A stretch of 64,000 nucleotides of DNA from Neoarius graeffei (taxonomy: Eukaryota; Chordata; Actinopteri; Siluriformes; Ariidae): NCBI RefSeq assembly GCF_027579695.1, contig NC_083596.1, positions 13,164,798-13,228,797 of the forward strand, in the 5' to 3' direction. A program made the translations under genes and the position numbers. The notes beneath the pieces are model-generated. The model was not told the DNA's origin, ran no database searches, and saw only the letters and a program-made list of their open reading frames with translations. Positions 3,759-63,982 of the stretch are shown here, one piece after another (positions within the stretch are counted from its first letter, which is position 1; each line of letters begins with the position of its first letter).

Positions 3759-4992
3759 AGTACACATCACAGGTAAATTCAGGAGCAAGATCAATGTAAT
3801 TCTCCTATTTTATATTAAACTTTGGTCAAATATCTGTCACATTCTGCGTTCCCTGCTATTTTTTTTTACCTTGCGCAATACTAGAAAAATTCAGTTGAAA
3901 TCAAGCCATTTGAGGCGAATTGGTCCGCCTCTGATAAAACTTGGCATTTGGATTTCCCGGCAAACACTGATTTTCGTGACATCACGTGCAGGACGCCGCC
4001 TTCTGAATCCTACGTCAGCGCTGGTTTGAGAAAATGACCTGGTGGTTTTCTGCAAGTTTCTTCAACGTTATCGTGTAATTATTAAATTGGTTAACAGATG
4101 TATTGGAGGGTGTAGCAACACCAGTCTTGATGGGATTAGTACTCCTTGTTTCCCAAAAGACTGGACAATGAGAGAAATGGGAGCGCTTGGTCTACACTGA
4201 AACCGTGCAAAGCTCTCGCAGCCTGCTGGTGCTTCCGCAGGTAACGTCACGAGTCTGGCTCCAGACTCCCTTGGGATTTTTCCAGACTTTTTTTTTTTTT
4301 CTGCTGTAGACAGATGGCCTTGTAGTCTGGCTAACGTGACTTCAAAGCTCTGCGAGCATTTGGTCTGGCAAAGATATTAAGCCCAACCGTTTTCCAAAGG
4401 CTTGGTTGACCCGCCTCCCTGAAATGCCTGTTTGTTACTGGTCGAAGCCAGAAAAGGCTGTGATGAAGCTTAAACCAATCACATCACTCTTTCCTCTGAC
4501 GTATGTGATGCGACGGAAACTGCTTGAGTAACAGGAAGAAGATAAATACCTCCAGGGCTGCTCTTTGCTCCGTTTTCAATAAGAACTTCCCGGTGAATGC
4601 TTTCAATACAGCATCTACCGCTGTCAAAGGCTTGCCGCTGCTTCATGTTCGTAATGTTTCTAGTGAATGAAGCGCTTCCGGCATAGATTCTGTAAACAAT
4701 CTATGGCTTCCGGTCGCAGTTCTACTACGTCACTGCCTTGAACACGCCTCTACCCAGGGCCGTTGGAGATGCTCAAAGTTGATTGGCTCCCGATTTTTCG
4801 GGAGCTTGGAAGAGCTGGAGATAGCTTGCCTGGCCAGACTAGGCTCGCAACAGGCCCTTGTGTTGCGTCACACTTAGGATGGGCGGGCCCAGGCTAGATG
4901 GCCTTGTGCAAAATTACCCTTCTGGATGAGTGTGTAAAGGGACATGCTTTCATATATTAAAAAAAAAAAGAAATTGGTCCAGAATATGCACT
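3759..4992 (+). mobile_element. Kolobok-like TTAA element with THAP exon remnant, copy A
   Basis: The element lies between TTAA at 3755-3758 and TTAA at 4993-4996, with ends AGTACACATC and GAATATGCACT that form an inverted repeat. It carries a degraded exon (about 4088-4200) of the form MVNRC..GGCSNTSLDGIST, the start of a THAP zinc finger. TTAA target sites plus a THAP domain point to the Kolobok superfamily. Another element (4323-4896) is inserted in it. Confidence 0.65.
4323..4896. mobile_element. TIR element with 9-10 bp target duplication (Mutator-like?)
   Basis: It starts TAGTCTGGC and ends CCCAGGCTA, with GATGGCCTTG directly on both sides. A 9-10 bp duplication suits Mutator-like elements. 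A second copy in opposite orientation is split at 59539-61381. It carries no open transposase frame. The superfamily call rests only on duplication length. Confidence 0.6.
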
Positions 4993-5451: not shown

Positions 5452-6114
5452 TGCCGCTTTTCCACTACAAACGCGGCTGAGTCGGGCTGAGCCGTGCCGT
5501 GCTGAGTCGAGCTGAGCGGGGCTATTGGAGTTGCATTTCGACTACCACCGCGCTGAATCGTGCTGGCTGGAAGTGGGTGGACACATTGGGTGGAGTTAGC
5601 GAAAGTGGGTGGACGTCAGGTGATGTCGTTAGGCGGCGCAAACAGTGACATCAGTGATCTTTTAAGCGGTAGTCTCACGACCTGGAGAGTAAACAATAAA
5701 CATGGAGGACATGGAGTCGTTAGTGTTGCTGGTCTTGGTGCTGTGGCTTGTTGTCACTGACAACGCCAACAGATACTGGCAAGAGCGTATAGATGAGGCG
5801 AGGCGCATAAGGCTTCAGAAATTCTCATAATTCTTCTTCCGGGTTTACGGTGATTACAGATCCCAGCGTGCTCGTGGGGCGTGTGTGGGCATGTGAGGAC
5901 ACTCCTCCTCACCAATCAGTGCACAGGGGAGTGTCTGCTCACGCCCCCAGCCTCACTCAGCTCGGTTTGGCCCGCTTCAGCCCCACTCCAAAACCGTGTG
6001 AGTTTTGGGTGCTAAGCAGGGCTGAAGCGAGCAGAGTCGTGCTGTTTTTAGATAGTCGAAACGCGAGCCGTGTCGGGCTGAAGTGAGCTGAAAAAGGGTA
6101 GTGGAAAAGGGCCA
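5452..6114. mobile_element. Harbinger-like MITE (TGGCCCTTTTCCACTAC family), copy 1
   Basis: The ends are TGCCGCTTTTCCACTAC and GTAGTGGAAAAGGGCCA in inverted orientation, followed at the right by TAA. The family relation is firm because a second, longer copy at 59596-60860 has the same ends and a clean TTA duplication. The inner sequence is rich in imperfect GCTGAG repeats. Confidence 0.75.
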
Positions 6115-6603: not shown

Positions 6604-7021
6604 GAAGTTGCATCATGCTTTTGGGTTCAGATTTTTTTTTGCAGGGAGCCTTGGGAAATAAGCCTACTTCCTCTTTAAAGGATGTATACTGATTTTCTTT
6701 TTGTTTGTTATACTATTGTTAAATTGACCCTTTGTGACTCGTATGCATTTTGTAGAAATTCAGTGCGACTTCATGCGATCCCTTTAAACCTCCTTTCTTG
6801 GCATGCACGTGGTTTGCTCAGTACTTGTGTGTGTATGTATGGAGGAATAGGATTTCCAGTGCTATGTCTTCGGTACCAGCATGCTCCCATCAGCTGGTCC
6901 TATCCTCAATCACTGGTACATGTGTTGCAGTTGCATGGACTGTACAGTAATTATAATGGGTCTGATTTATGGTTGAAAGGAAAAGGGCGTCTGAAATGTT
7001 AAATGATTGCGTAGAAATCCC
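6604..7021 (+). repeat. segmental duplication copy 1, left part
   Basis: This segment, continued at 9975-10108, is repeated nearly identically and in the same orientation at 11304-11858. It is split by a TTAA element at 7026-9970. Nothing in it identifies a known transposon or a coding exon, so its nature is unknown. Confidence 0.85.
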
Positions 7022-7291
7022 TTAAAGTGCACATCTTTGGTAAATTCAGGAGCAAGATCAATGTAATTCTTATTTCATATTAAACTTTGGTCAAATATCT
7101 GTAACATTCTGCGTTCTCTGCAATTTTTTTTTTTTTTACCTTGCACAATACCAGAAAAATTCAGCTGAAATCAAGCCATTTGAGGCGGATTGGTCCACCT
7201 CGGAAAAAACGTGGCATTTGGATTTCCCGGCAAACATTGATTTTCATGACGTCACGCACGGGACGCCTCCTTCTGAATCCTACGTCAGCGC

Positions 7292-11247: not shown

Positions 11248-11303
11248 TTAAGGATGGCCTTGGCTTTTTTTTTTTTTTTAATCTGAATGATTTTGTATTA
11301 AGT

Positions 11304-11858
11304 TGCATCATGCTTTTGGGTTCAGATATTTTTCTGCAGAGAGCCTTGGGAAATAAGCCTACTTCCTCTTTAAAGGATATATACTGACAATTTTTTTCTT
11401 TTTGTTTGTTATACTATTGTTAAATTGACCCTTTGTGACTCGAATGCATTTTGTAGAAATTCAGTGTACGACTTCATGCGATCCCTTTAAACCTCCTTTC
11501 TTGGCATGCACGTGGTTTGCTCAGTACTTGTGTGTGTATGTATGGAGGAATAGGATTTCCAGTGCTATGTCTTCGGTACCAGCATGCTCCCATCAGCTGG
11601 TCCTATCCTCAATCACTGGTACATGTGTTGCAGTTGCATGGACTGTACAGTAATTATAATGGATCTGTTTTATGGTTGAAAGGAAAAGGGCGTCTGAAAT
11701 GTTATTAAATGATTGTGTAGAAATCTCTTAAGGATTCATTAATTTGATCATTGTGTGGCATTTCATCTATTTCAGGGAGAAGTTGGTGAATGTATGCTAC
11801 ATCAGTGTCATGTAAGTCAATTTTGTTCCTTGTTTAATTCCGTAGCCTTTCACTGCTG
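11304..11858 (+). repeat. segmental duplication copy 2, uninterrupted
   Basis: This copy matches 6604-7021 plus 9975-10108 at high identity and keeps the empty TTAA site at 11728-11731 (AAATCTCTTAAGGATTC). It therefore serves as the pre-insertion allele for the element at 7026-9970. Confidence 0.85.
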
Positions 11859-23935: not shown

Positions 23936-25069
23936 AGTGTTTCTCAACCACTGGTAATGGGCTGCAAAGTGCCATCTTGTGGGCCGTGATACCACCCCCC
24001 CAAGTTGAAGCTAATATGATACAATTGCTGGGTTGCATCCAACGTCACATCCGCCTCATTAAGCTATATACACTACAGTTCGCGATGGGTTATTGATGAA
24101 AATGAGGCATTTTGGTAGTGATATATACGGTACGTGAGCTAAAAGTTGTGGTGAACACTAGACTGTCATGCCTTTGCGCACTCGAGTCTGGCGCAGCCCG
24201 AGCGGCTCGGGACCCGGTCATTATGGGAAACACCTGATACTGATTCGAGCGCTATCAGCACGCACAGATACAGAAGCTGTTTTCACAGAGGCTTATCATT
24301 ATCACGGTCACGTTTGTTTCTAGCCATGTTTAGAACACCGTTTAAATACTCTGCTTTATGATTTTGCTTTGCTTCCGTTTTTGTAAATAACCACTCTTTC
24401 TGCGCTTAGATCCATCTACCGCCATCTATCTTGTGTCCTGATCGGCACATCTTGAACCCAGCCACATATAAAAACTTGTACGCCTTCATGCTCTTCCAGG
24501 TTTTCATCTGGGTGTCCGTGTAGAACGATGTCCGCAGTGCCGGGTAGTTTGAGATGTCAGGGAACTCGGCAGATGGATAATTTTCCAACTCGTAGGAAAA
24601 ATCCTTCCTTGTTAGCATGTAAGGATCTAATCCCATTGAGTGGTTTCTGTATCCACGTCTTTTGAGTGTACATCTTAGTTTTAATAATTTGTTTGTTTGC
24701 TGAACACAAACATGGCGATAAGTTCTTGTGTTAATGGACCAGACTCCACTTTTGGATCATTAATCCCTTTTGACTGAGAATGCCCTGCATGCATGGTTTT
24801 ATATTGGCTTCTAGCACATCCGTACAGTTTTAAATACAATACCTACAATTAAAAGAGTTTGTTTTTATTGCATTTATTTAATTCCTGGGCTCCCATCTGT
24901 AACAGGGAGTGATGTTGCATCCCATTAATACACTATGATAGATTATTCGATTCTAATAGAACAGATGAGCCAAAATAATTGGGGATCTTTTTTTTTTTTT
25001 TAAATGGGCCCCGATTCGTTAAAAGTATAAACAAGTGGGCCTTAAAGCAGAAAAGGTTGAGAACCCCTG
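23936..25069. mobile_element. hAT-type transposon (CAGTGTTTCTCAACC family)
   Basis: The ends are CAGTGTTTCTCAACCACTGG and GGTTGAGAACCCCTG. The flanks CTTTAACG and CTTTAATG (23928-23935, 25070-25077) are an 8-bp duplication with one mismatch. It carries a YqaJ-like coding fragment on the minus strand. Confidence 0.88.
24406..24636 (-). pseudogene. fragment of transposon-borne YqaJ-type protein
   Basis: The minus-strand frame reads DFSYELENYPSAEFPDISNY and MKTWKSMKAY. It aligns by eye with the fragment at 12286-12600 (P.x.E.[YF]P..xNY, then [YW]KS[LM]..Y), yet it sits in a hAT element, not in the 12086-14458 family. It is one short exon-like piece with no nuclease motif. Confidence 0.45.
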
Positions 25070-26084: not shown

Positions 26085-26347
26085 TATCAAAGTCCCTTCC
26101 CACGCCATGTTGTCACATAGGGCGGCGCCGATCTCAGTTTCCGTAGCCCTCGGCCTCTCGCCTATTACATAGCTAGCTGGTTCTCTGGTAACCGCAAGAG
26201 TTTGACTCCCCACTCGCATCTGTATTGCAGCGTGCCTTGCCAGATGGCAGTAGGTACCATTTTTATGATGGTCTTTGGTATGACCCGACCGTGAGTAGAA
26301 CTCACGATCTCCTGATCGAGAGGCGGACACACTAACCGCTAGGCCAA
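26085..26347 (-). mobile_element. tRNA-derived SINE, second family, copy 1
   Basis: On the minus strand it starts TTGGCCTAGCGGTTAGTGTG (A box) and continues GCCTCTCGATCAGGAGATCG. It ends in GTGGGAAGGGACTTTGATAG. A second, split copy on the plus strand lies at 59459-59538 plus 61382-61575, and together they define the family. Confidence 0.8.
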
Positions 26348-30267: not shown

Positions 30268-31781
30268 ACAACAATGCAGAAAAAAAAAGATCCAACCTTT
30301 AATTCAAGTGCATTTATTCAGTGGGGGGGAAAAATCCCACATTAAGAAATAATTCTTTTACATGAAATCATGTGTGCCACAATTATTGGCACCCCTGATG
30401 TTAATACTTTGTACAACTCCCTTTTGCCAACAAGACAGCGCTTAATATTCTCCTATAACATTTCACAAGATGGGAGAATACAGAGAGAGAGAGGGATATT
30501 CGACCATTCCTCTTTGCACAATCTCTCTAAATCATCCAGAGTCCTGGGTCCTCCTGGGTCCAGTGCACTCTCCTCTTCAGCTCACCCCACAGGTTTTCAA
30601 TTGGGTTGAGGTCTGGGGACTGAGATGGCCATGGGAGGAGCTTGATTTTGTGTCTGGTGAACCATTTTTGTGTAGATTTGGCCACATGTTTAGGGTCATT
30701 ATCTTGCTGAAAGACCCAGTGACGACCCATCTTCAGCTTTCGGGCAGAGGCCACCAGATTTTGATTTAAAATGTCCTGGTATTTCAAAGAGTTCATGATG
30801 CCATGCACCCTAACAAGGTTCCCGGGGCCTTTGGAAGAGAAACAGGCCCACAGCATCACCGATCCTCCCCCATGCTTCACAGTGGGCATGAGGTGCTTTT
30901 CCGCATACTCATCTTTTGTGATGCATTAGAGCATTTGTTGCCCAAAAGCTCTATCTTGGTCTCATCTGACCAAAGCACACGGTCCCAGTTGAAGTCCCAG
31001 TACCGCTTAGCGAACTCCAGACGTTTACATTTATGCTTGTAAGTGAGAAAAGGCTTTTTCCGTGCATGCCTCCCAAACATCTTGTTGGCATGTAGATAGC
31101 CTGATGGTTGCTATGGAGACTTTGTGACCCCAAGATGCTACTCTTTGATGCAATTCTCTAACAGTGAGCTTTGGAGAACTTTTTACTTCTCTTACCATCC
31201 TCCTCACTGTGCGTGGTGGCAAGATAAACTTGCATCCTCGTCCAGACTTGTTTGCCACTGTTCCAGTTGTTTTAAACTTCTTGATGATTCCTCTGACTGT
31301 AGCTATGGGTAGGTGTAGGCGAGCAGCTATTTTCTTGTATCCATTGCCTGACTTATGAAGGTCGACACACATCTGCCTTACTTGAATGGTGTGTACTCGT
31401 CTTTCCCATGTTGAAGAGTGGATAAGAGAAATAGGTCTCTGTGTCACATCGTATTTATACCCCAGGGAAACAGGATGTGATGAATTACTAATTAAACGTT
31501 CCTAGATACTCTGATCAACTTTATAAACTACAGTAGAAATGACAGAAATGCCTCAATTACATTTATTTTCTAGAAATTATGGATGCCAATAATTGTGGAA
31601 CAGGTGATTTTATGAAAAATAATTATTTCTTAGTCATTTTTTTTTTAATTCACTTGAGTTAAGGGTTACATTTTTCTACAATTTTCAGTGTGAGATTATG
31701 CTTCTGCAATAAAATTTTTTTTTTATTTTAAGGCTTTTAACACGTCTTAACCAGGGGTGCCAATAATTGTGGAGGGCGCTG
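30173..31781 (-). mobile_element. Tc1-like transposon (CAGCGCCCTCC ends), transposase degraded
   Basis: The ends are CAGCGCCCTCCACAATTATT and its exact complement, flanked by TA on both sides (30171-30172, 31782-31783). The minus strand codes a Tc1 transposase in pieces: the N-terminal paired-like HTH (31447-31031), the first catalytic block LWSDETK (31080-30877), and the second with QQDNDPKH and NPIENLWGEL (30889-30527). The pieces lie in different frames, so at least two frameshifts inactivate it. An (AT)n run lies at 30235-30264. Confidence 0.92.
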
Positions 31782-34480: not shown

Positions 34481-34950
34481 CTGGGGATCAGAGGAACAAG
34501 ACGTTAATATACAGTCCAAACAAAAAGAGTGAAGGAGGAGGTAAGCTGAAACTTCAGTCTACGATAATCAGTTTTTTAGTGGAGCTCCTGCACGGAGCCC
34601 CATAGGCACAGAGTGTGGATCCATAAAGAAACCCATTGAGCTGTTTTCTGATGGTTTCGGTCCTGTGCGTGCGTGCCTGCCTGCCACCACAGGAAACCCA
34701 ACAGCCGAGTAGTGAGGAACCCCATCGAGTTGTTTTCTGATGAGTTAATTCTGTCTCAACATACTGCATTACGTGCGTTATTCATTTTGATAACCGTGCG
34801 ATAAGGACCTGAGACCTTCGTGCAAAACGTGCACACTTCTTTAAAAAAAGTTGATCTTTTACGAACAAACTATAACTCTAGAAAAGTCTTTAACGGTCTT
34901 TCTGGTTTCATAACACAGTTTCTTAATATTAGTATGTTGATAATGCCGAT

Positions 34951-39388: not shown

Positions 39389-40022
39389 TATATGAAACTA
39401 TGTCCCTTTACACACTCATCCAGAAGGGTCATTTTGCACAAGGCCATCTGTCTACAGCAGAAAAAAATAAAATAAAACACGTCTGGAAAAATCCCAAGGG
39501 AGTCTGGAGCCAGATTCGTGACGTTACCTGCGTAAGCGCCAGCAGGCTGCGAGAGCTTTGCATGGTTTCAGTGCACAGCCTGTGTAGACCAAGCGCTCCC
39601 ATTTCTCTCTCATTGTCCGGTCTTTTGGAAAACGATGAGTACTAATCCCATCAAGATTGGTGTTGCTACACCCTCCTACGATACATCTGTTAACCATTTT
39701 AATAATTACGCGATAACGTTGAAGAAATTTGCAGAAAACCACCAGGTCGTTTTCTCATAAACAAGCCAGCGCTGACATAGGATTCAGAAGGAGGCGTCCC
39801 ACACGCGACGTCACGAAAATCAACGTTTGCCGGGAAATTCAAATGCCAAGTTTTTTCAGAGGCGGACCAATTCGCCTCAAATGGCTTGATTTCAACTGAA
39901 TTTTTCTGGTCTTGCGCAAGGTAAAAAAATTGCACAAAATGTGACAGATATTTTACCAAAGTTTAATATAAAATAGGAGAATTACATTGATCTTGCTCCT
40001 GAATTTACCCGTGATATGCACT
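39389..40022 (-). mobile_element. Kolobok-like TTAA element with THAP exon remnant, copy C
   Basis: The right end GATATGCACT abuts TTAA (40023-40026); the other end is lost near 39389. The minus strand keeps the best THAP exon of the three copies (about 39550-39690): MVNRCIVGGCSNTNLDGIST then HRFPKDRTMREKWERLV. The second half of the THAP finger (the C-x2-H pair) is missing. Confidence 0.7.
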
Positions 40023-41242: not shown

Positions 41243-42853
41243 CAGTTAGGTCCATAAATATTTGGACAGAGAACATTTTTCTAATTTTGGTTCTGTACAT
41301 TACCACAATGAATTTTGAACAAAACAGTTCAGATGCAGTTGAAGTTCAGACTTTCAGCTTTAATTCAGTGGGTTGAACAAAATGATTGCATAAAAATGTG
41401 AGGAACTAAAGCATTTTTTAAAACACAAGCCCTTCATTTCAGGGGCTCAAAAGTAATTGGACAAATTAAATAATTGTAAATAAAATGTTCATTTCTAATA
41501 CTTGGTTGAAAACCCTTTGTTGGCAATGACTGCCTGAAGTCTTGAACTCATGGACATCACCAGACGCTGTGTTTCCTCCTTTTTAATGCTCTGCCAGGCC
41601 TTTACTGCAGCGGTTTTCAGTTGCTGTTTGTTTGTGGGCCCTTCTGTCTGAAGTTTAGTCTTTAACAAGTGAAATGCATGCTCAATTGGGTTGAGATCAG
41701 GTGACTGACTTGGCCATTCAAGAATATTCCACTTCTTTGCTTTAATAAACTCCTGGGTTGCTTTGGCTTTATGTTTTGGGTCATTGTCCATCTGTATTAT
41801 GAAACGCCGACCAATCAGTTTGGCTGGATTTGAGCACACAGTATGTCTCTGAATACCTCAGAATTCATCCGGCTGCTTCTGTCCTGTGTCACATCATCAA
41901 TAAGCACTAGTGACCCAGTGCCACTGGCAGCCATGCATGCCCAAGCCATCACACTGCCTCCGCTGTGTTTTACAGATGATGTGGTATGCTTTGGATCATG
42001 AGCTGTACCACGCCTTCGCCATACTTTTTTCTTTCCATCATTCTGGTAGAGGTTGATCTTGGTTTCATCTGTCCAAAGAATGTTCTTCCAGAACTGTGCT
42101 GACTTTTTTAGATGTTTTTTTTATCAAAGTCCAATCTAGCCTTTTTATTCTTGAGGCTTATGAGTGGCTTGCACCGTGCACTGAACCCTCTGTATTTACT
42201 TTCATGCAGTCTTCTCTTTATGGTAGATTTGGATATTGATACGCCTACCTCCTGGAGAGTGTTGTTCACTTGGTTGGCTGTTGTGAAGGGGTTTCTCTTC
42301 ATTCTGCGATCATCCACCACTGTTGTCTTCTGTGGGTGTCCAGGTCTTTTTGCATTGATGAGCTCACCAGTGCTTTCTTTCTTTCTTTCTCAGGATGTAC
42401 CAAACTGTAATATTGTAGCAATTTCTCGGATGGGTTTTTTTTCTGTTTTCGCAGCTTAAGGATGGCTTGTTTCACCTGCATGGAGAGCTCCTTTGACTGC
42501 ATGTTTTCTTCACAGCAAAATCTTCCAAATGCAAGCACCACACCTTAAATCAACTCCAGGCCTTTTATCTGCTTAATTGAGAATGACATAACGAAGGAAT
42601 TTCCCACACCTGCCCATGAAATAGCCTTTGAGTCAATTGTCCAGTTACTTTTGGTCCCTTTAAAAACAGGGTGGCACATGTTAAGGAGCTGAAACTCCTA
42701 AACCCTTCATCCAATTTTAATGTGGATACCCTCAAATAAAAGCTGAAAGTCTGGACTTTATGTCCATTATATAACTACAGCTTGAATATGTTTCAGTAAA
42801 CAGGTAAAAAAACAAAATTTGTGTCAGTGTCCAAATATATATGGACCTAACTG
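41243..42853 (-). mobile_element. Tc1-like transposon (CAGTTAGGTCCATAAATATT ends), transposase degraded
   Basis: The ends CAGTTAGGTCCATAAATATT and its complement are flanked by TA (41241-41242, 42854-42855). The minus-strand transposase is in several frames: N-terminal HTH (42541-42299), second HTH (42320-42108), and C-terminal catalytic part (41839-41495) with QMDNDPKHKAK and DLNPIEHAF, ending GFSTKY. A run of T near 42114 marks one frameshift. Confidence 0.93.
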
Positions 42854-46709: not shown

Positions 46710-46784
46710 TTATTTTAAAATAGATGATGGACGAATGAGGTCAGATTTATTTTTGAAAAATGTAGATATAGATAATAAAATTTT

Positions 46785-48480
46785 CTTCTTCTTTTGGCTG
46801 CTCCTGATGAGGGGTCGCCACAGCAGTTCTTTCGTCTCCATTGCTCCCTGTCTTCTACATCCTTCTCTACCACTTTCATACCCTCTTTCACCACGTCCAT
46901 GTATCTCCTCTTTGGCCTTCCTCGTTTTCGTGTGCCTGGCAGCTCCATCTTCAACATTCTCCTTCCAACATGCTCTGCATCTCAGTCTCATCTTACTTAG
47001 CTTAATTCCCAAGCTCTCTACATGTGCTGTCCATCTGATGTACTCGTTCCTTATCCTGTCCAACCTGGTCACTCCTATCGCAAACCTTAACATCCTCAAC
47101 TTTGCCTCCTGTCTCTTCGTTAAGGGTACGGTCTCCAATCCGTACATCACAGCTGGTCTCATTACTGTCTTATACATCTTACCTTTCACTTTTGCTGGGA
47201 CTTTCCGAACACAAATGACTCCTGAAATCCTTCTCCAACTGCTCCACCCTGCCTGCACTCTCTTTCTCACCCCACTATCGCAGCCCCCATTTTCCTGCAC
47301 AGTTGACCCCAGGTACTTGAATTCACCAACTTTCTTTGCATCTCCTCCTTGCATCTTCACTACACTCTCATCCCCATTCTCATTGATGCACATGTATTCT
47401 GTTTCGCTACTGCTCACCTTCATTCCTCTTCGTTCCGATGCATACCTCCATCTCTCCAAACCCAACTCAACCTCCTTTCTACTTTCACCACATATCACAA
47501 CATCATCCGCAAACATCATGTTCCATGGTGACTCTTGCCTCACTTCATCCGTCAAGCTATCCATCACTATGGCAAACAAGAAAGGACTCAAAGCAGATCC
47601 TTGATGGAGTCCCACCTTCACCTTGAACCATTCAGTCGTTCCGACTGCACACCTCACTGCTGTTTCACTGTTCTCATACATGTCTTGCACCACTCTAATA
47701 TAATATGGGCGGCACGGTGGTGTCGTGGTTAGCACTGTCGCCTCACAGCAAGAAGGTTCCAGGTTTGAGCCCAGTGGCCGGCGGGGGCCTTTCTGTGTGG
47801 AGTTTGCATGTTCTCCCCGTGTCTGCGTGGGTTTCCTCCGGGTGCTCCGGTTTCCCCCACAGTCCAAAGACATGCAGTTAGGTTAACGTGGGGCGGCCTT
47901 GGGCTGAAGTGCCCTTGAGCAAGGTACCTCACCCCTTACTACTCCCCAGGCGCTGTAGTCTGGCTGCCCACTGCTCTGGGTGTGTGTGCGCATGTGCTCA
48001 CTGCTTCAGATGGGTTAAATGCAGAGGATGAATTTCACTGTGCTTGAAGTGTGCATGTGACAATTAAAGGTTTCTTCTTTCTTCTACTTCTCATTCACTC
48101 CACTCTTTCTCATACTTCACTCCACTCTTTCTCATAACTCATCTCTCGGCACTCTATCGTATTCCTTCTCCAGGTCTACAAACACACAACGTACAGTAGC
48201 TTTCTCTGGCCTTCCCTGTACTTCTCCATTAACATTCTTAAAGCAAAAATTACATCCGACGTGCTCTTCATTGGCATAAACCCGTAGCCTACTGCTGTTC
48301 ACAGATTGCTACTTCTCTTCTTAATCTCGCCTCCAATACCCTTTCCCATAGCTTCATAGAGTGGTTCATCAATTTTATTCCTCTGTAATTACTGCAGCTC
48401 TGTACATCTCCCTGATTCTTGTTTATTGGGACTAGCACACACTTTCTCCATTCATTTGGCATTTTCTCATTCCAAATGAA
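46785..48480 (-). mobile_element. LINE (RTE-like?) reverse transcriptase, 5'-truncated
   Basis: On the minus strand the RT palm begins CVFVDLEKEYDRV (about 48165-48205) and continues, after a SINE insertion, with GLHQGSALSPFLFAIVMDSL, the catalytic FADDVVI motif, FKYLGSTV, MYGLET and GVTRLDRIRNEYIRWTAHV. The C-terminal basic part is followed by a GAAGAA-type tail near 46790. The endonuclease is missing. At least one frameshift occurs near the C-terminus (the KRGRPKRRYMDVV frame). The clade call is tentative. Confidence 0.8.
47707..48080 (+). mobile_element. SINE variant b: same head, different 3' half, copy 1
   Basis: The tRNA head and the first 170 bp match the common SINE (GGGCGGCACGGTGGTGTCG). 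After CATGCAGTTAGGTTAACG it switches to a different body (GGGGCGGCCTTGGGCTGAAG, then TGCTTGAAGTGTGCATGTGA) with a TTCTTCTTTC tail. It is inserted in the LINE. Copy 2 is at about 57455-57768. Confidence 0.85.
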
Positions 48481-58234: not shown

Positions 58235-59105
58235 CAAAACACTCAATAATTAGTTCAATTTATATAGCGCCTTTCTCAAAACCCAAGGTCGCTTTACAAT
58301 TATAGGCAGGGAAAAAAAAAAGTCCACCAAATAGAGGTCAGGATGTCATTCCAGTGGTGTAGTAGCCACAGTCCCACCAAAAGGCGCACGAAAACAAATC
58401 ACACCTCCAGCACAGCTGCTGTGACACCGCCAGCAACATCGCTCGGAACACCACGCCATGGATCCACAAAGCTAGCACAGGAGCACCGCCATGCAGAGCG
58501 CTGGTACGTCCCAAACCGCCTGCACAGCCACCGAGCAACATCGCTTGGAACATCATGCCAAGCAGTAAAGCACAGAGCGCTGGACAACCACGATGTTAAA
58601 ATGAGCAACGAGCTCACTGCAGTCCATAGCTGGGAGCACAGGCATCACCCACAGCGAACCAAGGCCCAAAACTGGATCAACTCTGTCTGAGGACCCTCCA
58701 GGTCTACACCTTTACCTCATAAACACCATTAACAAAAGGCTTGACTAAACAAATATGTTTTCAGCCTAGACTTAAACGCTGAGACTGTCTGATTCCTGAA
58801 CATTTATGGAACAGCCTTCCAAGTAATGTGGGGCTTTGTAAGAAAAGGCTGTGCCCCCTAATGTAGCCTTCACTATACGAGGTACCAGCAGATGCGCGTG
58901 GTGGGTCATAGAGGACCAGAAGTTCACTCGGGTACTGTGGTGCGAGACCATTCAGTGCTTTAAAGGTCAATAAATGTAGACCTGATAAACTCCCAACAAA
59001 TCTAATTTCAACATATTCCTGTTCACGGTCAACAATATTGCTGATGTTTTTAGCTGAGTGCAAAAGTTTGTACTCCCTATTTCTGGCTGCAAAAAATAAA
59101 TTGAA
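58235..59105 (-). mobile_element. LINE 3' end
   Basis: The minus strand reads LLTFKALNGLAPQYPSELLV then LYDPPRAS, the usual C-terminal region of a fish non-LTR retrotransposon, and ends in an untranslated tail with AAAGCGACCTTGGGTTTTGA and GGCGCTATATAAATTG. Only the 3' part is present and the frame is broken. Confidence 0.75.
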
Positions 59106-59169
59106 CATCTAAAGATTGCAGCAACTCTGTCATGAGCTCTCAAAAGTTCACATCCCTCTTCATGTCTTT

Positions 59170-59356
59170 CATATGCCTCATTTTCCTGGATACATTTATT
59201 ACTTTGCATTACCTTTCACCCCAAAATGACTATATTTGAGCAGATGAAGGTCAAGGGTCTTGCTCAAGAACCCCCCAAAAAAAGGGCAGATTGGCAGCAC
59301 TGGGACTCGAACTTACAACCTTCTGATCCATTATCTAAAGCCCTACCCACTGTGTT
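59170..59356 (-). repeat. tRNA-like short repeat
   Basis: It has TCTTGCTCAAGAAC, then GGGACTCGAACTTACAACC and ending AAAGCCCTACCCACTGTG. On the minus strand this is a degenerate tRNA-type head. A mariner-like element adjoins it. Confidence 0.5.
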
Positions 59357-59595
59357 ATACAGGGGGGCTGCAAAAGTAGGTATACAGTAATGAAAAACAA
59401 AACGTTATTTTATTGATTATACAAACATATCAATAATAACCATATCCCTCAAATAGGCTAGTGGCCTAGCGGTTAGCGTGTCCGCCTCTCGATCGGGAGA
59501 TCGGGAGTTCTACTCACAGTCTGGTCATACCAACGACCTAGCCTGGGCCCGCCCATCCTAAGTGTGATGCAACACGGGGGCCTGTTGCGAACTTA

Positions 59596-60860
59596 TGGCC
59601 CTTTTCCACTACCCTTTTTCAGCTCACTTCAGCTCGCTTCAGCTCACTTCAGCCCGACACGGCTCGCGTTTCGACTACCAAAAACCAGCACGACTCAGCT
59701 CGTTTCAGCCCTGCTTAGCCCCTAAAACTCGCACCGTTTTGGAGTGGGGCTGAAGCGAGCCAAACCGTGCCGAGTGAGGCTGGGGGCGAGCAGACACTCC
59801 CCTGTGCACTGATTGGTGAGGAGGAGTGTCCTCACATGCCCACACACGCCCCGCGAGCGCGCTGGGATCTGTAAACACCGCAAACCCGGAAGAAGAATAA
59901 TTATGAATTACGAGAATTTCTGAAGCCTTATGCGCCTCGCCTCATCTATACGCTCTTGCCAGTATCTGTCCGCGTTGTCGGTGACAACAAGCCACAGCAC
60001 CAAGACCAGCAACACTAACGACTCCATGTCCTCCATGTTTATTGTTTACTATTCGGGTCGTGAGACTACCGCTTAAAAGCTCACTGAATCAGTGACATAC
60101 AGAGCATCGTGCACGAGTTCGCGGAGCGCAAGGCTCGTCGTATGCCCTTCAAATAATGCGCGCAGTAGGCTATTGATGTTTTATTATGACCCATGTACAG
60201 TATGTCGCCTAATGTTTTTTTGTTTCTGAGTTACATGTTCGTTTGAAGGACTTAATGTACAAAATAACATAGTTGCACCCCGGAGTGTTGAAATTGGTAA
60301 ACACAGTGCATTCAGTGAGGTTTGCACCGCCCTCCTTTTATTTCTGACTCTTCCTGTCACCGTTGCAACCTCTGAGCGCTCATTCGTTTGCCCTTCAAAT
60401 AATGTGCGCAGTATAGGCTATTGATGTTTTATTATGAGCCATGTACAGTATCCTAATGTTTTTTGTTTCTGAGTTACATGTTTGTTTGAAGGACTTGATG
60501 TACTAAATAACATAGTTGCACCCGGTAGTGTTGAAATTGGTAAACACCGCAGTTGCGGACATTTTGCAGCCTAAAATGATGTTATGATAAGCTTTAATAA
60601 AGGGCCCGGTCATTTGCCCCGCCCCCGGCCCGGCTCTGACTTGTTCCGCCACTGTCACTGATGTCACTGTTTGCGCTGCTTAACGGCATCACATGACGTC
60701 CACCCACTTTCGCTAACTCCACCCAATGTGTCCACCCACTTCCAGCCAGCACGGTTCAGCGCGGTTGTAGTCGAAATGCAACTCCAGCAGCCCCGCTCAG
60801 CTCGACTCAGCTCGACTCGGCACGGCACGGCTCAGCCGCGTTTGTAGTGGAAAAGCGGCA
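59596..60860. mobile_element. Harbinger-like MITE (TGGCCCTTTTCCACTAC family), copy 2
   Basis: The ends TGGCCCTTTTCCACTACC and GTAGTGGAAAAGCGGCA carry TTA duplications (59593-59595, 60861-60863). Compared with copy 1 it has an extra hAT-derived insert of about 570 bp. Confidence 0.9.
60089..60654 (+). mobile_element. hAT-derived fragment, innermost layer of the nest
   Basis: The right end TTGTTCCGCCACTG is a hAT terminus, and TCACTGAA and TCACTGAT flank the piece as an 8-bp duplication with one mismatch. The plus strand near 60327-60390 reads ALLLFLTLPVTVATSERSF, the hAT dimerisation motif. A 247-bp tandem duplication covers about 60142-60640. Confidence 0.75.
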
Positions 60861-62009
60861 TTAGTCTGGCAAGGCAAGCTATCTCCAGCTCTTCCAAGCT
60901 CCCGAAAAATCGGGAGCCAATCAACTTTGAGCATCTCCAACGGCCCTGGGTAGAGGCGTGTTCAAGGCAGTGACGGAGTAGAACTGCGACCGGAAGCCAT
61001 AGATTGTTTACAGAATCTATGCCGGAAGCGCTTCATTCACTAGAACCATTATGAACATGGAGCAGCGGCAAGCCTTTGACACAGCGGTAGATGCTGTATT
61101 GAAAGTATTCAACAGGAAGTTCTCATTGAAAACGGAGCAAAGAGCAGCCCTGGAGGTATTTATCTTCCTGTTACTCAAGCAGTTTCCGTCGCGTCACATA
61201 CGTCAGAGGAAAGAGTGATGTGATTGGTTTAAGCTTCGTCACAGCCTTTTCTGGCTTCGACCAGTAGCAAACTGAGGCATTTCAGGGAGGCGGGTCAACC
61301 ATGCACTTTGGGAAACGGTTGGGCTTAATATCTTTGCCAGACCAATGCTCGCAGAGCTTTGAAGTTGCGTTAGCCAGACTACCAACGACCATCATAAAAA
61401 TGGTACCTACTGCCGTCTGGCAAGGCACGCTACAATACAGATGTGAGTGGGGAGTCAAACTCACGGTTACCAGAGGATTAGCCCCCCCACTGTAACCCTA
61501 GCTATGTAATAGGCAAGAGGCCGAGGGCTATGGAAACGGAGATCGGCGCTGCCACGTGGCGTGGGAAGGACTTTGAATCCCTCAAATGTTCAAACTGTTT
61601 GCCCCTGGCATTCACACACTCCACTAGTCAAGTGTGGACACCCATGCACACTCTGGCACAAAGGTCTTTATCAGCATCAATTTCTTGGCAAGCCTCCCGT
61701 ATGAACTGAATCATGGCATCAACAGAACGTGGCTTGCGTGCGAAAACCTCATCTTTTACACATCCCCAGAAAAAGAAGTCCGTGGGGTGAGATCCGGTGA
61801 ACATGGTGGCCAGTCAACGGCTCCCAGATGTCCAATCCACCTGTTGGGAAATTCTTTGTCAAGTAGCGCACACACATTGAGTGCGAAGTGTGGTGGCGCC
61901 CCATCCTGCTGAAAGTAGAAGTCGTCCTGCTGCTGCTGTTCGCGTATAATCCTTACTGTATATCTACTTTTGCAGGTATAAAACATGCCACGTGATTGAG
62001 TTAGGTTTT

Positions 62010-62255
62010 GCACGGTGGTGCAGTGGTTAGCACTGTCCCCTCACAGCAAGAAGGTTTCGAGTTCGAACCTCACGGCCGACAGGGGCCTTTCTATGTTCTC
62101 CCCGTGTCTGCATGGGTTTCCTCTGGGTGCTTTCCTGCAGTTGGGTAGAATACCCAGCTACTGGTTTTGTACAAGACGGTGCATTCTTAGTTCCAATCCC
62201 AGGCCCAGTGTGAGATTAGTGTGAGCTAAAATGGTTATTAACCTTCTGAAAATAA
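62010..62255 (+). mobile_element. SINE variant c: tRNA head with a third body
   Basis: The head GCACGGTGGTGCAGTGGTTA and B box GAGTTCGAACCTC match the common SINE, as does CCCGTGTCTGCATGGGTTTC. It then switches near TGCTTTCCTGCAGTTGGGTA to an unrelated end. It abuts the broken right side of the mariner-like element. Confidence 0.75.
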
Positions 62256-62279
62256 AGTCTATACAAGTTTTATTTATGG

Positions 62280-62670
62280 CACAGGTTCCCGACCCTGGTC
62301 CTGGAGAACGCCTCTGGACTGAATGGTTTACAGTGGTTTAGCCCCATCATTGAACTGAACTAAGTTTGATCATAATTTTGCCTTTTAAGACACCAATAAC
62401 AGTAATTTATCGGTTTTTAGAGTTAAAGATCAAAGATTATTGCTTGTGTTTGTTTAACATTTGATATATGACACGACTGAACATACGAAATACAAGAGGA
62501 AGTCAGAATCTCTTCAAATTATTACCGGCAATTAATTATTCACGTCAAACGGTACTAAAGATGAGAATTTGACATCATGCCAAATTATTACCGGTGAACC
62601 AGAATATCGTTCTTAGAATGACGATTGCATCTTTAGAATGTGCTTTGAAACTGCTCTGTTGAGCTGCATA
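62280..62670. other. unassigned sequence
   Basis: No gene or repeat was recognised here apart from short AT-rich runs. Confidence 0.4.
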
Positions 62671-62672
62671 TA

Positions 62673-63982
62673 CTAGTGCATCTCAAAATTAGAATACCAT
62701 GAAAAAGTTCTTTTTTTCATAATTTAATTCAAAAAGGTAAACTTTCATATATTCTATATTCATTACATGTAAAGTGAAATATTTAAAGCCTTTTTTGTTT
62801 TAATTTTGATGATTATGGCTTATAGCTCATGAAAATCAGAAATCCAGTATCTCAAATTATTAGAATATTCCCTAAGATCAATCAAAAAAAGGATTTACAA
62901 TACAGAAATGTCCAACTTCTGAAAAGTATATTCATTTATACACTCAATACTTGGTTGGGGCTCCTTTACCATGAATTACTGTATCAATGCGGTGTGGCAT
63001 GGAGGTGATCAGTCTGTGGCACTGCTGAGGTGTTATTGAAGCCCAGGTTGCTTTGATAGTGGCCTTCAGCGTATCTGTATTTTTGGGTCGGGTGTGTTTC
63101 ATCTTCCTCTTGACAATACCCCATAGATTCTGTATGGGGTTCAGGTCAGGCAAGTTGGCTGGCCAATCAAACACAGATATATCATGGTCAGCAAACCATT
63201 TGGTAGTAGTTTTGGCACTGTGTGTAGGTGCTAAGTCCTGCTGGAAAAAGAAATCAGCATCTCCAAAAAGCTCGTCAGCAGATGGAAGCATGAAGTGCTC
63301 TAAAATCTCCTGGTAGATGGCTGTGTTGACTTTGGACTTGATAAAATACAGCGGACCAACACCAGCAGATGACATGGCACCCCAAATCATCACAGACTGT
63401 GGAAACTTCACACTGGGCTTCAAACACCTTGGATTCTGTGCCTCTCCACTCTTCCTCCAGACTCTAGAACCGTGATTTCCAAATTAAATGCAAAATGTAC
63501 TTTCATCTGAAAAGAGGACTTTGGACCACTGAGCAACAGTCCATTTCTTTCTCTCCTTAGCCCAGATAAGACACTTCTGACATTTGTCTCTGGCTCAGCA
63601 GTAGCTTGATATTAGGAATGCGAAAGTTGTATCCCCTTTCTTGAAGATGTCTGTTCGTGATGGGTCTTGATACACTGACACCAGCCTCAGTCCACTCCTT
63701 GTGAAGCTCTCCCAAGTTCTTGAATCAACTTTTCTTGACAATCCTCTCAAAACTGCGGCCATCCCTGTTGCTTGTGCACCTTTTCCAGCCACCCTTTTCA
63801 GCAATGACCTTTTGTGGCTTACCCTCCTTGTGGAGGGCATCAGTGATCATCTTCTGGACAACAGTCAAGTCAGCAGTCTTCCCCATGATTGTGGTTGTGT
63901 GTACTGAACTAGACCGAGAGATACACTGTGTTCATACTGTTTTACTCAAACTCGAAATGAAATATTCTAATATTTTGAGATG
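62673..63982 (-). mobile_element. Tc1-like transposon (GCATCTCAAAATTAGAATA ends), transposase degraded
   Basis: The left end GCATCTCAAAATTAGAATA and the right end TATTCTAATATTTTGAGATG are inverted repeats. On the minus strand the catalytic block (63423-62944) runs from MIWGAMSS through FFQQDLAPTHSAK to DLNPIQNLWG and ends KGAPTKY. The third catalytic residue, normally E in NPIENLWG, is Q here. The N-terminal HTH (63840-63595) is in another frame. Confidence 0.9.

Follow-up and report, generated by a model that had tools for sequence, protein, structure and literature searches.

A nest of five elements, each inside the next, occupies a stretch of ~2.6 kb at 59360-61976 of the window, by which we mean the whole stretch of DNA that was analysed (64,000 bases, 0 N, 41.9% G+C). 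From the outside in, the layers are a Tc1/mariner-group element, a tRNA-like SINE, a Mutator-like TIR element, a Harbinger-like MITE and a hAT-like piece. The nested arrangement of the five elements, with readable duplications, is confirmed by our analysis, and it was very probably produced by five successive insertions at one site. The nest illustrates stacked transposition cleanly, in that most of the steps are demonstrable within a single 64-kb window, and this window is the source of all of the sequence evidence on the nest given below.

Empty sites and duplications of the three inner steps

We compared the region 58800-62600 with the entire window by BLAST, listing repeats as well, and for three of the four nesting steps the window proved to contain an uninterrupted copy of the host element. 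The segments 59462-59538 and 61380-61576 aligned to one contiguous SINE copy at 26346-26087, the segments 59538-59590 and 60862-61382 aligned to one contiguous Mutator-like copy at 4897-4322, and the segments 59592-60087 and 60655-60864 aligned to one contiguous Harbinger-like copy at 6118-5448. In each of the three cases, the breaks in the alignment coincided with the claimed duplication. The three reference copies named in the initial annotation (26085-26347, 4323-4896 and 5452-6114) are real and, by BLAST, uninterrupted.

To examine the breakpoints, 20 bases from each side were joined, with the insert and one duplication removed, and compared with the uninterrupted copy. The joined flanks were identical to the SINE, Mutator-like and Harbinger-like copies at 38, 35 and 39 of the 40 bases, respectively, and when the right breakpoint was moved by 1 to 12 bases either way (24 shifts per case), the maxima were 28, 29 and 32 of 40, in the same order. 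Since the joined flanks matched at the claimed breakpoints only, in all three of the cases tested, adjacency is excluded for these three steps. The empty sites of the three inner steps, together with their duplications, are directly demonstrated. The five-layer nest with duplications described in the initial annotation is thus borne out: the duplications are present, taking out the inserts and comparing the remainder with uninterrupted copies, as it had proposed, restores the host sequence for three steps, and for these three steps the restored copies rule out one of the two findings that it said would overturn its reading, namely layers lying next to one another without being nested.

At 150 random spacings in the window, the frequency of a chance match per position was 8.6e-6 for 11 bp, 1.3e-5 for 9 bp, 1.3e-4 for 7 bp and 1.8e-2 for 3 bp. 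At the exact spacings found in the nest, the SINE and Mutator-like duplications were the sole matches of their length in the window, and at the hAT-like spacing there was one further 7-bp match, at 24549. The Harbinger-like duplication, TTA, would by itself be uninformative.

The Mutator-like TIR element (59539-61381, plus strand; ~575 bp without its inserts) extends from TAGCCTGG to CCAGACTA and is flanked by exact copies of CCAACGACC at 59530-59538 and 61382-61390 (both plus strand). Because the element ends in TA and a TA also precedes the target, the exact repeat spans 11 bp (59528-59538 on the left), and the true duplication may be anything from 9 to 11 bp. CCAACGACC occurs once more in the window. 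Both flanking copies carry C where the uninterrupted SINE carries A, which fits a single target copied twice. MULEs make target-site duplications of 8-11 bp, and their terminal inverted repeats are often long. The duplications of the element in the nest (9-11 bp) and of the uninterrupted copy at 4323-4896 on the minus strand (10 bp, its own) lie within that range, and the two ends, TAGCCTGG versus TAGTCTGG, match at 7 of 8 positions, with little similarity further in. An inner TAGTCTGG motif at 60862 was considered as the end of a further element, but it recurs at the equivalent position in the uninterrupted Mutator-like copy, and no flanking duplication was seen beside it by eye; the candidate was therefore dismissed. 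The reference copy at 4323-4896 itself sits in another repeat, an unfilled copy of which, with the target GATGGCCTTG intact, lies near 39439-39450.

The Harbinger-like MITE (59596-60860, plus strand; ~691 bp without its insert) ends in TGGCCCTTTTCCACTAC and GTAGTGGAAAAGCGGCA, which are complementary at 15 of 17 positions, and lies between TTA copies at 59593-59595 and 60861-60863 (both plus strand). Both TTA copies carry T where the uninterrupted Mutator-like copy carries C, again as fits a single target copied twice. The uninterrupted Harbinger-like copy (5452-6114, minus strand) is bordered by TTA at one end and by ATA at the opposite end. PIF/Harbinger elements have a 3-bp TWA duplication and TIRs, and the MITE has both.

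The innermost layer, the hAT-like piece (60090-60654, plus strand; 565 bp), has the ends CAGTG...CACTG and is absent from the uninterrupted Harbinger-like copy. The motif TCACTGA is found on both sides of it, at 60081 and 60655, with 16 further occurrences in the window when both strands are counted. hAT elements are marked by an 8-bp duplication and by short TIRs of the CAGTG kind. Here the right copy of the duplication, TCACTGAT (60655-60662, plus strand), is identical to the uninterrupted Harbinger-like copy, and the left copy, TCACTGAAT (60081-60089, plus strand), has one base extra or differs from the right copy by one substitution; the ends of the piece agree little past the first five bases (CAGTG). 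The initial claim that every junction carries a duplication therefore stands in that none is missing, but the left hAT-like copy is one base off. The piece contains a direct duplication (60138-60304 and 60384-60547, 91%, with starts ~245 bp apart), and when it was folded as DNA, nothing notable emerged (z -0.58). The names Mutator-like, Harbinger-like and hAT-like are putative, being taken solely from duplication length and end sequences, which are the customary basis for naming short elements and not proof, and hAT appears to be the weakest of the three labels.

The SINE and the Tc1/mariner-group shell

The tRNA-like SINE (59455-61576, plus strand) is split into 59455-59529 and 61382-61576, ~270 bp without its inserts, and is flanked by an exact 11-bp repeat, ATCCCTCAAAT, at 59444-59454 and 61577-61587 (both plus strand). 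The core of this repeat, ATCCCTCAAA, which begins at 59444 and 61577 and reaches 11 bp when the next T is included, was found nowhere else in the window on either strand. The uninterrupted SINE (26087-26346, minus strand) is flanked by a 14-bp duplication of its own, TAGTGTAAGGTATA, and the length of the duplication thus varies between the two copies. Motifs resembling box A and box B, TGGCCTAGCGG and AGTTCTACTC, are present in both copies, as judged against the pol III patterns. ARAGORN detected no tRNA in the whole window; Rfam at gathering scores likewise gave no tRNA in its two matches, both to SNORA57, and with the reference SINE as the query and E up to 1 it gave two matches, to other families and far below gathering scores. 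The box motifs and the variable duplication suggest that the SINE is tRNA derived.

The shell of the nest (59360-61976, minus strand) is an internally deleted Tc1/mariner-group element of ~483 bp without its inserts. TA adjoins both of its ends (59358-59359 and 61977-61978), and its TIR arms at 59368-59393 and 61950-61975 agree at 92% over 26 bp, the right TIR being without 7 nt found in the left. Between the SINE and the right end, at ~61577-61944 on the minus strand, lies a C-terminal transposase remnant of ~130 residues, interrupted by one frameshift and one stop. Its catalytic aspartates show D-41-D spacing, with one frameshifted codon written X. The best solved-structure match of the remnant, a single weak one, was to the Sleeping Beauty (Tc1) transposase (PDB 5cr4, E = 3.5e-4); the other 59 among the best 60 of 152 structure matches (E up to 10) were antibody chains by name, with E of at least 0.024, and are read as chance. 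Three Pfam queries, one for each remnant piece and one for both pieces joined, gave no family at E up to 1.

The TA duplication, the TIRs and the DDE/D transposase place the shell in the Tc1/mariner superfamily. The second and third acidic residues are 34 residues apart in mariner proper and 41 apart in the shell, a spacing that puts the shell nearer DD41D (rosa/Visitor) than mariner proper. The term "mariner-like" used initially is accordingly right for the Tc1/mariner group, as shown by the TA and the TIRs, but not for mariner proper, and "DD41D-like member of the Tc1/mariner group" is probably a more fitting name for the shell than plain "mariner".

A second copy of the mariner was sought by BLAST of the region in the window and none was found; with no uninterrupted copy at hand there, the outermost step, SINE in mariner, is less firmly shown than the others. 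The evidence for it is the 11-bp duplication and the matching outer ends of the shell, from which we infer the empty site. With the SINE removed, the transposase frame crosses the junction and runs for 8 more codons before a stop, but this supports the step weakly, as chance alone would leave 8 codons open about two-thirds of the time. A sixth, outer layer was also sought, but the best second copies in the window, with E of 0.094 for the 160 bp to the left of the mariner and 2.0 for the 34 bp to the right, were unconvincing. When one mariner remnant piece was compared as protein with viral contigs, none of the 6 candidate stretches was confirmed, and none of three exact patterns, taken from the mariner TIR, the SINE and the Harbinger-like end, was found in such contigs.

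Order of the insertions and alternative readings

The events at the site can be reconstructed as follows. A DD41D-like Tc1/mariner-group element would have inserted at a TA, and most of its coding part would have been deleted, perhaps before rather than after the SINE arrived. The tRNA-like SINE would then have retroposed into this shell, at the 3' end of what remained of the transposase gene, making the 11-bp duplication. A Mutator-like TIR element would have entered the SINE with a duplication of 9-11 bp, a Harbinger-like MITE would have entered the Mutator-like element with its TTA duplication, and the hAT-like piece, which holds no recognised gene, would have entered the MITE with an 8-bp duplication, one copy of which later changed by one base. 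The superfamily of the enzyme that would have moved each piece is likewise our inference. The order of nesting is also the order in time unless two layers came as one composite, and we think that no two layers are likely to have arrived together.

The blocks might instead lie side by side, or have been assembled by recombination or segmental duplication, with the short repeats arising by chance. A 3-bp match such as TTA turns up at 1.8% of positions when the spacing is random, and other duplicated stretches do exist in the window. Against this, the sequences flanking each insert align with a single unbroken copy at another place, and the breakpoints fit at the claimed base only; the restored copies contradict a side-by-side arrangement at three steps. 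As for recombination, the reference copies lie apart and have other flanks, and two of the three have exact duplications of their own; those of the SINE and Mutator-like copies differ from the ones in the nest, which argues that these were independent insertions and, with the flanks, that the nest is not a rearranged copy of those places. We regard such an assembly as having a close to negligible probability. A narrower version of the argument applies to the outermost step, where the SINE and the mariner might be adjacent and not nested, the mariner-like ends then coming from different copies. The window holds no uninterrupted mariner copy with which to counter this, and the two shell ends differ by 7 nt, but the TIRs agree at 92% over 26 bp, TA lies beyond each of them, and the SINE is flanked by an 11-bp duplication for which the window offers no other equally long match at the same spacing. 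We therefore consider adjacency at this step to be very unlikely.

Unlikely, too, is a composite origin, in which at least two layers moved together, for example a Mutator-like element with the Harbinger-like MITE already inside it, although this would leave the order in time unfixed. Nesting establishes containment and not whether the inner element arrived before or after the outer one reached the site, and divergence is greater within the Harbinger-like pair than within the Mutator-like pair. The sole other Mutator-like copy found in the window is without the MITE, and the sole other Harbinger-like copy found there is without the hAT-like piece; each is one copy and weighs little against a composite. 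Five separate insertions remain the preferred reading. Divergence does not help to order them: K2P values from single reference copies (SINE, 0.078; Mutator-like, 0.036; Harbinger-like, 0.062) do not track the nesting order and give it no support, divergence being a poor clock with one reference copy per layer.

The statement that the site reveals the order of activity of five classes of element overreaches: with a single insertion from each class, what can be read is the order of five events at this place. Transposon families may stay active over long, overlapping periods. A chronology of families requires many nests, as in the TinT (transpositions in transpositions) approach outlined in PMC3014933, which mentions thousands of nests in present-day genomes.

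Relation to known systems and other repeats in the window

The Sleeping Beauty transposase is DD34E. Compared with the solved structure (PDB 5cr4), the remnant in the shell has its two acidic residues further apart, and the last of them is a D. The D-41-D spacing is one that the remnant has in common with the DD41D/Visitor (VS) elements of vertebrates, as characterised in PMC9777934; the likeness is one of spacing, and all that the shell retains of its transposase is a broken C-terminal part. That vertebrates harbour DD41D elements is already known from that source, which cites Shen et al. 2020 for multiple Visitor invasions of vertebrates and notes horizontal transfer of DD41D/VS in ray-finned fishes. 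In the rosa DD41D elements of flies and aphids, too, 41 residues separate the second catalytic D from the third, according to PMC5490172, and the rosa TIR given there, ~28-32 bp, is similar to that of the shell. One aphid rosa TIR, starting AAGGGTGTCTCAAAAAGAACG (PMC5490172), has a layout that by eye resembles the left end of the shell. The transposase of the shell, for its part, is a C-terminal remnant with a frameshift and a stop. There is a slim chance that the shell represents an undescribed DD41D lineage in this host, apparently a fish from the look of its repeats, perhaps one that arrived horizontally and separately from the published vertebrate DD41D/Visitor elements.

Reading the order of insertions from nests is an established method. 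TinT likewise reads relative order from element-in-element insertions and, as PMC3014933 presents it, tallies the frequencies of many nests to obtain a chronology of families, whereas here there is one site. The nest is ordinary genome history, and such nests are ordinary; with five layers, four of them DNA-transposon-like, and duplications still readable, it is a tidy example and not a new kind, and it leaves knowledge of transposons unchanged. It could be used to test annotation software that has to defragment nested repeats.

Several other repeats and open frames were seen in the window. A stretch of ~430 bp is present twice (6605-7025 and 11300-11731, 95% identity), and each copy contains one of the matches to SNORA57, an H/ACA snoRNA (6789-6923 and 11492-11626, 86.7 bits each). 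In the list of ORFs, open frames at 30527-30925, 41495-41857 and 62944-63483, all on the minus strand, look by eye like Tc1-type transposase (DNDPKH, SPDLNPIE), and a 390-residue open frame at 46710-47882, also on the minus strand, looks by eye like a LINE-type reverse transcriptase (FADDVV motif). A repeat of ~370-400 bp has at least nine copies with ~94-99% identity, at 143-929, where two copies lie head to tail, and at 34950, 38744, 44849, 46245, 48724, 49883 and 52493, which suggests a recently active family.
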